Assembly: GCA_022822785.1 (NCBI GenBank)
Contig: JAJEAL010000001.1
Span: 1-47,247, forward strand
Source of the DNA: Candidatus Poribacteria bacterium
Lineage (GTDB): Bacteria > Poribacteria > WGA-4E > PCPOR2b
Length of the DNA: 47,247 bases
Direction of reading: 5' to 3'
A program made the position numbers and the translations under genes. Below are positions 10,135 through 27,115 of the stretch, one piece after another (the first letter of the stretch is position 1; each line of letters begins with the position of its first letter). Below the pieces are notes generated by a model, which saw nothing but the letters and a program-made list of their open reading frames with translations, was not told the DNA's origin and did not search any database.

Positions 10135-11553
10135 TTAGAGCACATCCGCTTTGATCATGTTTGTAGTTCCGGGGGCGTCCGCTGGTACGCCTGCGATAAT
10201 GACCACCCGCTCTCCCATCTGGGCAAGGCCTGACTTCAACACAGCTTGCTTAGCACTCGCAATCATCGTGTCTGTGTCAGGCGCGAACTCAATTGAGATA
10301 GGGAATGCACCCCAAAAGAGCCCTACCCGGCGGAGTGTGACTTCATAAGGACTAACAACCGCAATCGGCGCAGATGGACGGTATTTCGCAACAAGCCTCG
10401 CAGTTTGACCTGTTCGTGTACAACAGATAATTACTTTTGCACCAATTTCTATAGCGGTGTGACAAGCGGCGTGCGCGATTGCGTCTGGCACGTTCTCCTC
10501 AAGGGTGAATGGTTGACTTTTGAAGTGTTCCACATGGTCAATCGTGGCTTCGGTTGCCGTCGCAATTTGAGCCATTGTTCGGACCGCATCAGCGGGGTAT
10601 CTGCCGATAGCAGTTTCGCCCGAAAGCATTAAGGCGTCCGTACCGTCAAAGATTGCGTTGGCGATATCCGTAATCTCTGCTCGTGTAGGTCGCGGATTGA
10701 CAATCATCGATTCGAGCATCTGGGTGGCGGTGATGACCGGTTTACCCACAAGGTTTGCGCGTCTGATAATCTCTTTTTGGAGGAGCGGTACCTCCGGCAA
10801 CGGCACCTCTAACCCTAAGTCTCCTCTAGCAACCATTACACCGTCCGCTTCGGCAAGGATGTTATTCAGATCATCCAATGCTTCACGCTTTTCCAATTTG
10901 GCAACGATCGGTATGTCAGAACCGTGTTGTGCCAAGATCGATTTAAGGTGCTGAAGTTCTGCAGCGTTTCTGATAAATGACTGAGCAATCCAATCAACGC
11001 CGTGTTGTATGCCAAAGCGCAGGTCCTCAAGGTCCTTTGGGGTCGGAATAGGTGTTTGTAAGGAGATGCCGGGAACGCTGATACCCTTGTTTGAACGGAG
11101 CACCCCACCGGCGATGACTTCGCAGATGATGTCCGTGCTCGTCGTCGAGATTACACACAGCTCAATCTCGCCGTCCGCTAACAAGATGCGATTTCCCGGT
11201 TTGACATCTGCAACCAGCTCAGGATAGCTAATCGATACAGTAGCGTGATCGCCAATTACCTCCCGCGTTGTGAGGGTGAACCTTGCATTAGGAGACAGCT
11301 CGACCTGTTCATCCAAGAACTTGCCGATCCGCATCTTCGGTCCCGAAAGATCCTGCAAAATTGGGATTCGTACACCGAGCTGCTTCGAGGCTGTTTTTAG
11401 GCGGGCAATGGTTTGGGCGTGATCGGCGTGCGAGCCGTGGGAGAACGAAACCCTTGCGACATTCATCCCTGCATCAATCAGGGAATGTAACATTTCCGGC
11501 GAACTGCTAGCGGGACCGATGGTACAGACAATATTTGTGCGTTTCCGTTTCAT
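10135..11553 (-). CDS. pyk: pyruvate kinase
   Basis: Glycolytic enzyme converting phosphoenolpyruvate and ADP to pyruvate and ATP; cytoplasmic tetramer in the family. Starting at the ATG MKRKRTNIVCTIGPAS gives 472 residues, the usual length without the extra C-terminal domain. Visible motifs are MNVARVSFSHGSHADH, DLSGPKMRIG, MVARGDLGLEVPLPEVP, KPVITATQMLESM and DGTDALMLSGETAIGRYP (K, R, D and E residues of the active site). The C-terminal domain includes IICCTRTGQTARLVAKYRP. The frame stays open 141 bases further upstream, but that stretch belongs to a MITE-like element, so the longer start is rejected. The downstream ABC gene is probably cotranscribed. Confidence 0.95.
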   Translation of the reverse strand: MKRKRTNIVCTIGPASSSPEMLHSLIDAGMNVARVSFSHGSHADHAQTIARLKTASKQLGVRIPILQDLSGPKMRIGKFLDEQVELSPNARFTLTTREVIGDHATVSISYPELVADVKPGNRILLADGEIELCVISTTSTDIICEVIAGGVLRSNKGISVPGISLQTPIPTPKDLEDLRFGIQHGVDWIAQSFIRNAAELQHLKSILAQHGSDIPIVAKLEKREALDDLNNILAEADGVMVARGDLGLEVPLPEVPLLQKEIIRRANLVGKPVITATQMLESMIVNPRPTRAEITDIANAIFDGTDALMLSGETAIGRYPADAVRTMAQIATATEATIDHVEHFKSQPFTLEENVPDAIAHAACHTAIEIGAKVIICCTRTGQTARLVAKYRPSAPIAVVSPYEVTLRRVGLFWGAFPISIEFAPDTDTMIASAKQAVLKSGLAQMGERVVIIAGVPADAPGTTNMIKADVL

Positions 11554-11555
11554 AC

Positions 11556-11734
11556 TATAGTAAAGTTTAGAATTAATTGGACACTCTTTACCGGCGAGGG
11601 GAAAATCCGGGGTATCATCCCGGTAGGTGCGGTTTCTAACCCCACCGAATCCCGACGAGTCCCCGATTACATCGGGACAGACGGGACAGGACATGAGGGG
11701 CGAAAGTGTCTATTTATTTTTAGAATTCACCATA
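11556..11734. repeat. MITE-like element, copy A
   Basis: About 180 bp bounded by imperfect inverted arms. The left arm contains TTTAGAATTAATTGGAC (from 11566). The right arm contains GTGTCTATTTATTTTTAGAA and ends ATTCACCATA. The interior carries TAGGTGCGGTTT and further GC-rich hairpins, with no coding capacity. A second copy lies at 25992-26093. It begins two bases upstream of the pyk ATG, so pyk may take its promoter from it. The target duplication is unclear; TA at both edges is possible. Confidence 0.6.
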
Positions 11735-11802: not shown

Positions 11803-14800
11803 TTACTTCAGTATCAGCATCCGTCGCGTCGCTGTAAACTCACCGGCTGTCAGCGTATAAAAATAGACGCCGCTAGCAAGGGACTCACCAAGCCCATTCC
11901 GACCATCCCAATAGGCAGCACGGCTTCGACTCCGATACATACCCGCCGCTCGATGCCCTACCTCCAAACGCCGAACCAATTGCCCATTTATGTCGTAAAT
12001 TTTCAGCGTTACCTCCCCCGATTCTGCCAACTGATACGGTATCCATGTCTCCGGGTTAAACGGGTTCGGATAATTTGCCAACAACGCCGTCGCTTCAGGA
12101 ATTAGTGAAGCCAGTAGCTTTTCAAGGTTCGCGATACCCTGTTTGAAAGCGAGTGAACCGTCGTCTTCCAACCGTGCCTGTGCTATCCACGCCTCTATCA
12201 TCGCAGCGTCTACGCTTTCTGTCCCCACCGATGGCGCAGCGGACGCTGTGGTGTTGCCGAGACTTCGTGCCGTGAGGATGAGGTCGAGGATACTGACGAC
12301 ACCATCGCCGTTGAGATCCACCGGCGAGCCAGCGGGTACTCTCCTCCCTAACTGCTGTGCGATGAGAATTAGATCCAGAATGCTGACCACACCGTCCCTA
12401 TTTACATCTCCGGTGGCAAGTCCCTCCTCCACAGTAATACGGATTTCATGCGGCCCTGCGGGGATAGCTTCTCCGGTAGTGGAGCCGAATTGGAAGTTCT
12501 GCAGTGCTAACTCCGTTTCGCCGGAAGCTTTCGCCTTGAACCGTACCTGAACTAGAGTGCCGGTGCCGGTCACCCCTTGGGTAGACAACCGCGCTGCACT
12601 GAGTCCCGTGATTTTCCCCGCTACGTTATCAATGCTTCCACTCTGAAAGAGGGTTGTGCTGCCTGTCTTTAGGAAATCCCCTTCACTGATATTGATGGCT
12701 TCAAGTATGTTTGGGTCGAAAGCGATATCAAACTGCCAACCTGCGAAATCGAAGACATTTTCTGCACGGATATCAAGCGTAAAGGTATCACCCGCGTGAA
12801 TTGGCGTCTGAGAAAAAGTGGAGCCGACACCGGGATTTGCGACTGTATATTCCGTGCCTTCTTCAAACCCAAAAAAGGAATTATAGTTTGCTTCAACCGC
12901 TACTAACAAGACATTTCTTCCCTGCTTCAGCGTGACCGGGAGAAAATCTGTGTAGCCATGGGACGCATGATAACGGAGGGACTCGTAAATCAGAACCCCA
13001 TTGAGCCAGACCTGAAAATCGTTATGGCTGCCGACATACATCGTGGTGTCTTGTTGTCGCGGTGAATAGAGAGACACAGTACCGTAGAGCATATTGGAAA
13101 GACGGAAAGTGTCATCAAGATTACCTCCAAGCATATCCTCAACGTTCTTACCCCCCGTAGCAGGAAGTCTACGGGAGGTCCAGACGTCATCTCCGACAGG
13201 GCTTCCCTCTACTGCCCCATGGGTAGCAATCTCTATCTCCGTCACCGCACCTCCACTCACTTTTGACAGTAAATCGCTACTACTACTCGGTGCATGGTAC
13301 GGCAGCATGACCCATAGCCACGGTCCTTCTATTTTAGGCCCGCCCTTTGGGAACGCCGGATTGCCGTGCCAAAGAAGCATTATATCCTGGCGTAACTCAT
13401 CCAAAGGCGAAATGTCGAAAATTTCATTATTATAGACCCCTAGCCATTTCAAATTGATTAACCCGGCAAGCGGGGATATATCTGATATGTCGTTGTCTGC
13501 AACCCTTAGCCATTTCAAGTTGGTTAACCTCGCAAGTAGGGATATATCTGATATGTTGTTGCTTGAAAGATCCAGACGATTTAACTCGGATAATCCCGCA
13601 AGTAGGGATATATCCGATATGTCGTTACCATCAAGTATCAGATCGGTTAACCCGGTTAATTCCGCAAGGGCGGATATATCCGATATTCTGTTGTTGGTAA
13701 GACGTAGGTGTTTCAAACCTTTTAAGTTTGCCAAAGGTGTTAAATCTGATATAGTCCCGCCGTAAGTATATAGATTTTCTAGTTTCGTTAGCCCCACAAG
13801 GGGTCGTAAACTGGATATAGGGTTACCCCGAGCACTAATGGTTTTCAGGTTGACTAATCTAGCAAGCGGTGACAGGTCAGTTATGTTGTTGTGTGCAAAA
13901 TCTAAACTTTCCAAGTTGATTAATCCAGCGAGTGGAGACAGGTCGGATACATTGGTACGAGAAAAAGGCAAATTTATTAGATTGACTAATCCAGCAAGTG
14001 GTGACAGGTCGGATACAGGGGTATTAGTAAGCCAGATTTCAGCCAAGTTGATTAATCCTGATATCGGTGAGAGGTCAGAAATCTGATTATCTTCGATATT
14101 TAACCAGCCTATGTTTGTTGCAAATTGAAGGCCTGTCAAATCACGGATGCCTTTGCTTGGCACGTCGAGGTGGCCTAAGGTTTCCATCTCCTTCACAGTA
14201 ATCGAGGCATCGGAGCTTTTGCCAAGTGCTTCCGCAATTGCCGTACGCAGATTCAAATCAGGAATCTGAACAACGGTATTCGGCTTCTGTTCTGGCGGCG
14301 TCACGACGGGAGGCACCACGAGGGCTGTTGGGAAATTCAGTGCAAAAACTATATCCCTGAAATTTGATGTCCATGCGTCCCGTTTCATAGTGCCATTCGG
14401 GCTGCCTAATACCAACAGACCCGCATTCTGCAATCCCACATTCTCTCGAATCTCTTCCAGGAGGGTTTCGGTCTCTAACCCGACCACCGCAGCGGCGTAT
14501 GCTACGTCCACGTCGCCTTGAAACGCCTCATGGAAGCGGGAAATTGGCTCAATGTTATCAATCGTACCACCTGTCTCTTCCAGTGCTTCTTTATACCGCT
14601 CCGTATCCTCTGCTATAAGCATATCCATCTCTGACTTTTCGACATAGAGACGTAACGCTTGTGCTTTGTCGTAAGTCGGGTTGGCGTTGCTCTCTATCAC
14701 CGGACGTACCTGATCCTCAAAGGTCTTCATACCTTCGGTGTGGCAACCGAAACAGGACAATCCATTCCGCACCCTCGGATCACTTGCCGCAGGATTGGAA

Positions 14801-25396: not shown

Positions 25397-25414
25397 TAAT
25401 GCACTTCACAACCT

Positions 25415-25473
25415 AAAACAGGCAGCGACTTGAGCGGAATGCAAGTGTAACCTCCCAATCGCTGCCTGTTTTT
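25415..25473 (+). terminator. intrinsic terminator of the ferredoxin gene
   Basis: The 14-bp perfect stem AAAACAGGCAGCGA / TCGCTGCCTGTTTT is separated by a 30-base loop and runs into TTTTT. It sits 18 bases after the ferredoxin stop. Confidence 0.75.
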
Positions 25474-25505
25474 GATATACCACAAATAGTGTAATGGTCT
25501 GGTAG

Positions 25506-25835
25506 ATGACACCTCAACCAACCCAGATTAAACGCCTCCCAGATGCGATTGATGTCCAATGGAACGATGGGCACCACAGGGTGTATTCCTATCAATTGCT
25601 GCGTCAAGAATGTCCATGTGCACGGTGTAAATCAGATAAAAATCCGCTACGGCTATTGTCCGCCGATTCGTCAGTAAAAAATCTCACAATCGTTGATATA
25701 CAGCTTGTCGGCCGTTATGCCATTCGATTGATTTGGAATGACGGGCACAAGACAGGCATCTATACATTTGAATTTTTGCGCTCACTCCAACCCAGTCCAA
25801 CCGAAACTACCTCACCTGATAACTCGTTTGATTAA
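25506..25835 (+). CDS. DUF971 family protein
   Basis: A 109-residue protein equal to the N-terminal domain of gamma-butyrobetaine hydroxylases, found alone in many bacteria. Characteristic phrases are DAIDVQWNDGHHRVYSYQLL, RQECPCARCKS (possible metal-binding Cys-Pro-Cys-x-x-Cys), IVDIQLVGRYAIRLIWNDGH and TGIYTFEFLRSL. DUF971 proteins often occur near iron-sulfur or Mrp/ApbC genes, so the ferredoxin neighbour may be meaningful. The exact role is unknown. The ribosome site is weak. Confidence 0.88.
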   Translation: MTPQPTQIKRLPDAIDVQWNDGHHRVYSYQLLRQECPCARCKSDKNPLRLLSADSSVKNLTIVDIQLVGRYAIRLIWNDGHKTGIYTFEFLRSLQPSPTETTSPDNSFD

Positions 25836-25991
25836 TCGGTTCACGCTTCCACCGCTTTATTATAGATAGCTTCCCAATCATTCCCAGTACCACTTTGGTT
25901 ATCTCTGTCTATCCGTTTTTGTGGCTTGCATACTAACAAATCTGGCAGTCGGACAATATGCTGTAGAGCGAGCGTGTTACCACCGTTAGTT

Positions 25992-26093
25992 TATGGTAGA
26001 TTTTAGAATTATTTGGACGCGTCAAACCGGTGCGGTTGGAAACCGCACCTACCGGGGGACGAAAGTGTCTACTTATTTCTCTAATTCACCATA
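25992..26093. repeat. MITE-like element, copy B
   Basis: A 102-bp relative of the element at 11556. The left arm TATGGTAGATTTTAGAATTA and right arm GTGTCTACTTATTTCTCTAA, ending ATTCACCATA, are near inverted repeats. The middle holds the hairpin GGTGCGGTT/GGAAACCGCACC. Both copies share GAAAGTGTCTA and ATTCACCATA. Its right arm supplies the last codons and stop of the polysaccharide deacetylase. I see no gene in 25836-25991. Confidence 0.6.
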
Positions 26094-26888
26094 GTAATAG
26101 CAGGGAAGATTTCTGCCTTGGATAGGGTCAACGTATTTTGCCAAATCACGTAGGGCGATGACAGTGCAATCGTTATCGTGAAGATAATCCATATAGGTTT
26201 CAAAGACCTTTGGCTCTGTATTGACCCAAGGATGCTCAAGAGCGGGTACACCGTGGAACGTCAAGACAGCAATCTGCCCATCCCCTGCCCCCTCAACTGT
26301 CCACACCAAGTCATCAAACGTCCAGTGTGGTCCTGAGGCGCCTGTCGTCGGGATAAGCAGCGGATGATGTTTCGCCGGATCGTATGCTGGACCTCGTCCC
26401 CCTTCCGAATCGTAAGAAAACTCCGGTGCAACGCCGCGTCGTGCGAAGAGGAACCCTTTCTCAGTTAGGGCTTTCACAGCTTCAGATCCATTGGAGTAAC
26501 CCGGATAACAGAAGGTTTCAGGCACAGGGATACCATGTTCCTTGCAACGTAGATCGATGTGCTCCAGGTCTGCGAGCAGCTCTACACTTGATTGGGTGTT
26601 TACGTTTTTATGATGGCGCGTGTGATTACCGATTTCAAACCCGGCTTCGTGCAGCTCCCGAACCTCTTCCCATGTTACGTAGTGCCCCTTGTTTTTAAGA
26701 AAGTTGAGTCCTTCAGTGATAAAAAAAGTCGCACCAAATCCATAACCCTTCAGTAACGGTGCAACATAGGTGGCATCGGACTTATTACCGTCATCGAAGG
26801 TCAAGACGACCAATCGATCAGGGATGGGGTGGAGGTCTTGTGAGGCGGGTATATTCCTGTCATTATCGTAAACATCTGATTCGTTCAT
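26073..26888 (-). CDS. polysaccharide deacetylase (NodB-homology) family protein
   Basis: A carbohydrate esterase 4 type hydrolase removing N- or O-acetyl groups, or a related amidase. Motif 1 is VVLTFDDGNKSDATYV (catalytic and metal Asp pair). Motif 2 is EIGNHTRHHKNVN, with the metal-binding H-x-x-x-H (HTRHH). TFCYPGYSNGSEAVK is motif 3. AVLTFHGVPALEHPW holds the C-terminal histidine. There is no signal peptide. The start is the ATG at 26888 behind AAGGGGAAACCG (271 residues); a TTG 48 bases upstream is possible. The final residues YGELEK and the stop come from the MITE-like arm, so the original C-terminus may have differed. Substrate unknown. Confidence 0.88.
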   Translation of the reverse strand: MNESDVYDNDRNIPASQDLHPIPDRLVVLTFDDGNKSDATYVAPLLKGYGFGATFFITEGLNFLKNKGHYVTWEEVRELHEAGFEIGNHTRHHKNVNTQSSVELLADLEHIDLRCKEHGIPVPETFCYPGYSNGSEAVKALTEKGFLFARRGVAPEFSYDSEGGRGPAYDPAKHHPLLIPTTGASGPHWTFDDLVWTVEGAGDGQIAVLTFHGVPALEHPWVNTEPKVFETYMDYLHDNDCTVIALRDLAKYVDPIQGRNLPCYYYGELEK

Positions 26889-26947
26889 CGGTTTCCCCTT
26901 GATATGATTGATTAGCTGCTTTCCAAAAACTTCCAAAGCCGATCAAA

Positions 26948-27115
26948 CTACAATCCTGTAATAGGCTGATGTCGCAAGATAGTGTTGGCCCCCTTTTTCT
27001 CCATACAACTCGGTGCTAACTCCAATTTCAGTAGTCCCGAATCGCAGCGAATGTCATATTCTACCGCCGGTTTCATCTGGCTCGCCTGGGACCAGCAGCG
27101 TCCTGCTTTATTCAT
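26948..27115 (-). CDS. candidate small ORF, 55 residues, upstream of the deacetylase
   Basis: The ATG at 27115 has GAAAGGTAGAAGGT upstream and the frame ends at TAG 60 bases before the deacetylase ATG. The product begins MNKAGRCWSQASQMKPAVEY and contains three cysteines. No family is recognised. Two longer ATG frames exist on the opposite strand but lack ribosome sites. It could be a leader of the deacetylase operon or chance. Confidence 0.25.
   Translation of the reverse strand: MNKAGRCWSQASQMKPAVEYDIRCDSGLLKLELAPSCMEKKGANTILRHQPITGL

Follow-up and report, generated by a model that had tools for sequence, protein, structure and literature searches.

A mobile element has rewritten the end of a polysaccharide deacetylase gene in this Candidatus Poribacteria genome. 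The element, 102 bp long, lies within the former stop codon of the gene, between duplicated copies of TA, and provides both a tail (YGELEK) and a new TAA stop codon. Copies of the same family have altered the ends of other genes in a similar way, and the sites share a palindromic target motif that contains stop-codon letters. We consider it very probable that a single chain of events accounts for these observations: a MITE with many copies, for which an IS630-family transposase probably acts in trans, inserts at the TA within the target AWYTARWT. Landing in ...TAC-TA^A-AC... at the end of the deacetylase gene changed the stop codon to TAT, and translation now enters the A-end arm for six codons and ends at the TAA of the arm. 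The extended deacetylase is presumably produced and would still be functional.

The deacetylase gene and its former stop codon

The window analysed here is the whole stretch of 47,247 nucleotides, which forms contig C4 of this genome. In it, the deacetylase ORF occupies positions 26073-26936 of the minus strand (287 aa; the TTG start is as listed and provisional) and matches Pfam Polysacc_deac_1 with an E value of 1.1e-21. Its C-terminus reads ...LPCYYYGELEK*, of which the last 6 residues are element-derived. The sequence-only reading had held that YGELEK and the TAA are read from the arm of the repeat, and this was confirmed: the tail and stop (26073-26093, with the new TAA at 26073-26075 within the element, minus strand) form part of the right, or A-end, arm at 26065-26093 (minus strand). 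The first residue of the tail is encoded by a hybrid Tyr codon, made of the TA of the old stop and the first T of the element; after this change from stop to TAT, the arm contributes GGT GAA TTA GAG AAA TAA. The TA of the former stop codon (26092-26093) is the first copy of the target duplication, and the second copy (25992-25993) is followed by the former 3' flank. Because it was the old stop codon that received the insertion, the deacetylase has been lengthened by six residues, not cut.

Relatives preserve the earlier state of the site. From the matches in 58 genomes, 30 loci (our own and 29 others) were taken for an orthologue alignment, and no orthologue was found to end in the same residues: YGELEK terminates 0 of the 29 aligned loci. 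The present genome is designated G000 and its same-genus relatives G001-G005. Among the five same-genus orthologues, 4 terminate in LPCYY or LPCYF followed by TAA, and those of G005 and G003 run on as ...TAC[TAA]ACCAA... At the end of the G005 gene the DNA reads TACTAAACCAACGG. When the flanks of the deacetylase site are joined across the element they read TAC-TAA-ACTAACGG, the joined-flank sequence being TACTAAACTAACGG. Since the joined flanks match the site in the relatives, the element entered between the TA and the A of the stop codon and the TA was duplicated. The fifth orthologue (G001, locus L065) diverges after RDLAKYV and has 322 aa with an unrelated, longer tail, and is therefore uninformative about the former stop.

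The element family

The element spans 25992-26093 (minus strand, the TA at each end included). Besides the A-end arm it comprises a B-end arm (25992-26020, plus strand), with 3 mismatches to the B-type consensus, and a central GC-rich hairpin (26028-26056). The terminal inverted repeats are identical at 23/29 bases between A and B ends. At up to 3 mismatches the arm motif occurs twice in the window, versus 0 times in 100 shuffles.

Copies were collected from 127 stretches of the present genome (1.03 of 5.60 Mb), picked among the matches listed: 42 of the 63 in one match list, 100 of the 211 A-type end matches, and all 88 of another list. From 286 ends, 106 first-pass pairs of less than 700 bp and 26 looser ones gave 132 pairs; 116 copies were left once 8 overlapping pairs and 8 that lacked TA at one or both ends had been removed. 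Pairing demanded opposite orientation, not opposite type, and all 108 first-pass end pairs join an A with a B end (59 A-B, 49 B-A). TA is found at both ends in 100/108 first-pass pairs and in 116/124 of the refined set. All 116 insertion sites are distinct, as are the 49 sites of 49 elements sampled from 60 stretches chosen among the matches listed in G004 and G005. Copy length among the 116 ranges from 94 to 458 bp (within the <700 bp limit of the search), and no transposase lies inside the element. With inverted repeats, TA duplication, small size, no transposase and many copies, the element is a multi-copy MITE. G000 has 211 matches to the A-type end; in G001, host of the divergent deacetylase tail, none was found at up to 2 mismatches. 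Nested or adjoining copies were seen at L162 3911-4155, L217 3911-4116 and, in G000, C7:4364-4558, C65:5269-5812 and C94:25609-25843. In the literature on Poribacteria combined with MITE, insertion sequence or transposase, judged by titles, no earlier report of this element was recognised.

The second copy in the window, copy A (11556-11734, minus strand, 179 bp), has an ORF that ends at 11803 on one side and pyruvate kinase on the other. As had been noted, the same arm and frame here give YGEF and then TAA; however, no listed gene ends there, and the minus-strand ORF that would enter copy A already terminates at 11803, leaving 68 nt between it and the element. In the list of ORFs, pyruvate kinase (10135-11694, minus strand) begins at 11694, inside copy A. 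The element makes up its first ~45 codons, and the true start is thus probably further in.

As RNA, the 102-bp element folds with -29.8 kcal/mol (z -3.41, 1/200 shuffles). A role as transcription terminator was considered and rejected, there being no terminator-like site in 25400-27000 despite the good RNA fold.

Other genes with element-derived ends

A look for similar tails elsewhere in the genome, as proposed along with the original reading, found them in other genes of the sampled stretches. Of the 116 TA-flanked copies in G000, 5 sit in stop codons: besides the deacetylase (YGELEK), these affect an amidase (YGES), a GH88-like protein (YGRF; the likeness is weak, below the Pfam cut-off), a PDDEXK_2 protein (YGEL) and a SurA-like protein (YSGP). 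In close orthologues, which lack the element, the corresponding codon is a stop in 3/3 cases for the amidase, 4/4 for the GH88-like protein and 1/1 for PDDEXK_2. The ends of the 5 orthologues of the SurA-like protein vary, so that its putative former stop is read only from the joined flanks. Among the 49 copies in G004 and G005, 1 appears to sit in a stop codon, with a predicted tail of YSEF.

Two more of the 116 copies lie within 45 nt of the 3' end of an ORF. ORFs were defined mechanically (at least 80 aa, longest first), and 15 copies fall inside one, a count that includes uncertain starts: 9 of these 15 lie no more than 150 nt from where an ORF begins. Some further ORFs end in the arm by another frame and not via a stop codon (L119 2729-4024, L166 4017-5180, L106 7392-8045, L196 807-1178), with tails such as MVNSKNK, MVH, MVNNINM and MVN.

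Target motif

When the insertion sites are joined, a palindromic target, AWYTARWT, is revealed. Its core YTAR is present at 107/116 sites in G000 and at 46/49 in G004/G005. In the same DNA, YTAR makes up 22.9% of all intergenic TAs, 17.0% of coding TAs and 43.9% of stop-codon TAs. YTAR holds TAA or TAG on both strands, and hence a stop codon TAA or TAG becomes a possible target whenever a pyrimidine precedes it. For the same reason, YTAR is absent from ORFs with its TA in the first codon position, where it would itself be a stop (0 cases, versus 3412 and 2532 in the remaining frames). Within ORFs its density is 6.9 per kb, and elsewhere it is 14.6 per kb.

With each TA weighted by the target matrix, the expected numbers of insertions are 73.0 for ORFs, 4.4 for stop codons and 38.6 for intergenic DNA; those observed are 15, 5 and 96. 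Insertions into ORFs are strongly depleted, as purifying selection would give. The number of stop-codon hits is that predicted from the target sequence alone.

A candidate helper transposase

A 908-bp insertion sequence at G000:C119:17199-18106 (L231) has an IS630-family transposase whose coding sequence is spread over two frames. It scores 115 bits with DDE_3; with NF033545 (cut-off 100) the larger frame reaches 102.1 bits and the smaller 24.6, below the cut-off. Transposases split over two frames, as in this IS630 element, also occur in elements for which frameshifting is described. The ends of the C119 element agree with the A and B arms of the MITE at 21/29 and 22/29 bases respectively (0/20000 shuffles each). 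Among the 6 DDE_3 loci, arm-like ends above 18/29 were found only in this copy and in its contig-end partial copy. Four further identical fragments of its end, located at contig ends, suggest that the IS is present in several copies. From the likeness of the ends, this resident IS630-family element is a likely source of the transposase that would move the MITE in trans. Two observations speak against it: the C119 copy itself occupies CTAT, not YTAR, and chance yields matches of up to 20/29 somewhere in a shuffled locus. A full-length parent bracketed by the ends of the MITE was considered and rejected: the sole such pair, of 3036 bp, holds ordinary genes and no transposase.

Alternative explanations

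The recurrence of stop-codon insertions might be taken to mean that insertion is actively directed to gene ends, or that the arms of the element have been selected to give replacement stops, stop codons being a designed safe harbour. We regard this as very unlikely. The 5 stop-codon hits of 116 are indeed more than the 1.48 that TAs drawn at random from anywhere would give (p 0.017), and the distance to the upstream stop is shorter for the 74 same-strand intergenic copies in G000 than for control YTAR sites (median 61.5 versus 124 nt, p 0.0002), although the distance to the downstream start is not (p 0.51). The enrichment in stop codons nevertheless disappears when target sequence is weighted (4.4 expected) or coding sequence is set aside. 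With only noncoding and stop-codon sites counted, the stop share is 5/101 versus 5.8% for TA (p 1.0); versus YTAR it is set against 6.3-13.7%, depending on the ORF cut-off, with p from 0.69 to 0.02, all towards fewer. On this comparison, a lower tolerance of stop-codon than of intergenic hits would hold at some ORF cut-offs and not at others. The pooled hits (6/140) give p 0.023 versus a rounded share of 0.10, which itself depends on the ORF cut-off. The arms are uneven as evidence for selection. Read inward in the stop-codon frame, the B end meets a stop within 10 codons in 102/106 copies (76% in composition-shuffled sequence), but the A end does so in 69/106 (shuffled 78%), and 32 A ends run for 16 codons in this frame; one arm is thus above and the other below chance. 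Over all readings of both ends in each frame, 515/636 stop within 10 codons versus about 63% in shuffles. Selection of the arms for stops was rejected as uneven among readings, with the A end in the stop frame below shuffles. The arm supplies a stop often, not always, and we do not think that it is built to end genes. The earlier generalisation that the arm tends to give invaded genes a short tail and stop is supported only in part: no more than 5 of the 116 copies lie in stop codons and another 15 in ORFs, the two arms differ, and copy A ends no gene. It also seems quite unlikely that, with stops as built-in landing sites through YTAR, the ends are kept so that the opened frame closes within 4-6 codons, an idea disfavoured by the A-end stop counts. 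If true, the MITE would be a stop-codon-swapping parasite, persisting at the ends of genes because it repairs its own damage.

Two further proposals concern the identity of the element and the origin of the tail. The element could belong to an IS427/IS711-like mobile family (IS5 superfamily), since the reported target of IS711 is YTAR with TA duplication (PMC2266754), and YTAR is what is found here, at 107/116 sites, with duplicated TA. The search for a helper covered the transposase families DDE_3 and PF13340; the sole PF13340 locus in the genome has no arm-like end of at least 18/29, unlike the IS630 copy, and we judge membership in that family to be unlikely. That the deacetylase tail is native and its resemblance to the repeat a matter of chance is extremely improbable. 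None of the 29 aligned orthologues carries the tail, the arm motif has no match in 100 shuffled windows, and a duplicated TA borders the element at precisely the position of the old stop; nothing was found in support of a native tail. The insertion of a MITE into a stop codon that matches its target, probably with an IS630-family helper, is the account that we retain.

Comparison with known systems

We suggest that the exchange of a stop codon for a short extension is an ordinary side effect of a mobile element whose target contains stop letters. The presence of TAA or TAG on both strands of such a target would be a simple reason why some small repeats often end bacterial genes. For annotation, endings such as YGEF, YGEL, YGES and YGELEK in these genomes should be treated as element-derived and not as protein-family sequence.

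With regard to transposition, IS630 and Tc1-mariner elements, including ISY100, insert at TA and duplicate it (PMC2170065, PMC6400869), and IS630 is reported to prefer CTAG, which is a YTAR site (title cited in PMC2170065). By contrast, the preference here spans eight bases, AWYTARWT, and the element contains no transposase. IS711 of Brucella, with a reported YTAR target and duplicated TA (PMC2266754), is an autonomous IS of about 0.8 kb; the one PF13340 locus in the present genome is without matching ends. RUP and Correia elements resemble the present element in size (about 100-150 bp) and in their TA termini, and the ends of RUP resemble IS630-Spn1; they differ in that RUP is described with stops in each of the six frames and the 107-bp Correia element with open frames that are fused (PMC2229807, PMC3049150).

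Repeats that supply gene ends and stops are already known. In Streptococcus pneumoniae, BOX repeats provide the end, including the stop codon, of 36 of the 58 CDSs that they overlap, with no strong evidence of truncation (PMC3049150). Like the present element, BOX is a small high-copy repeat that supplies stop codons, but repeat and host are different, and the excerpt on BOX does not describe a stop-containing target (PMC3049150). RU-1/ERIC is fused to the 3' end of the ECA3499 amidase of Erwinia carotovora, where it appears to have removed the normal stop (PMC2759123); the tail there is about 35 residues, versus 4-6 for the present element. QMITE1 and QMITE2 of Coxiella burnetii are MITEs that lie over gene 3' ends, for example adding 33 residues to enhC with a stop immediately downstream (PMC5896051), and differ in their longer coding tails and in element family. 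What is added to these by the present case is that the former site is clear, that nearly the same tails recur, and that a target motif accounts for them.
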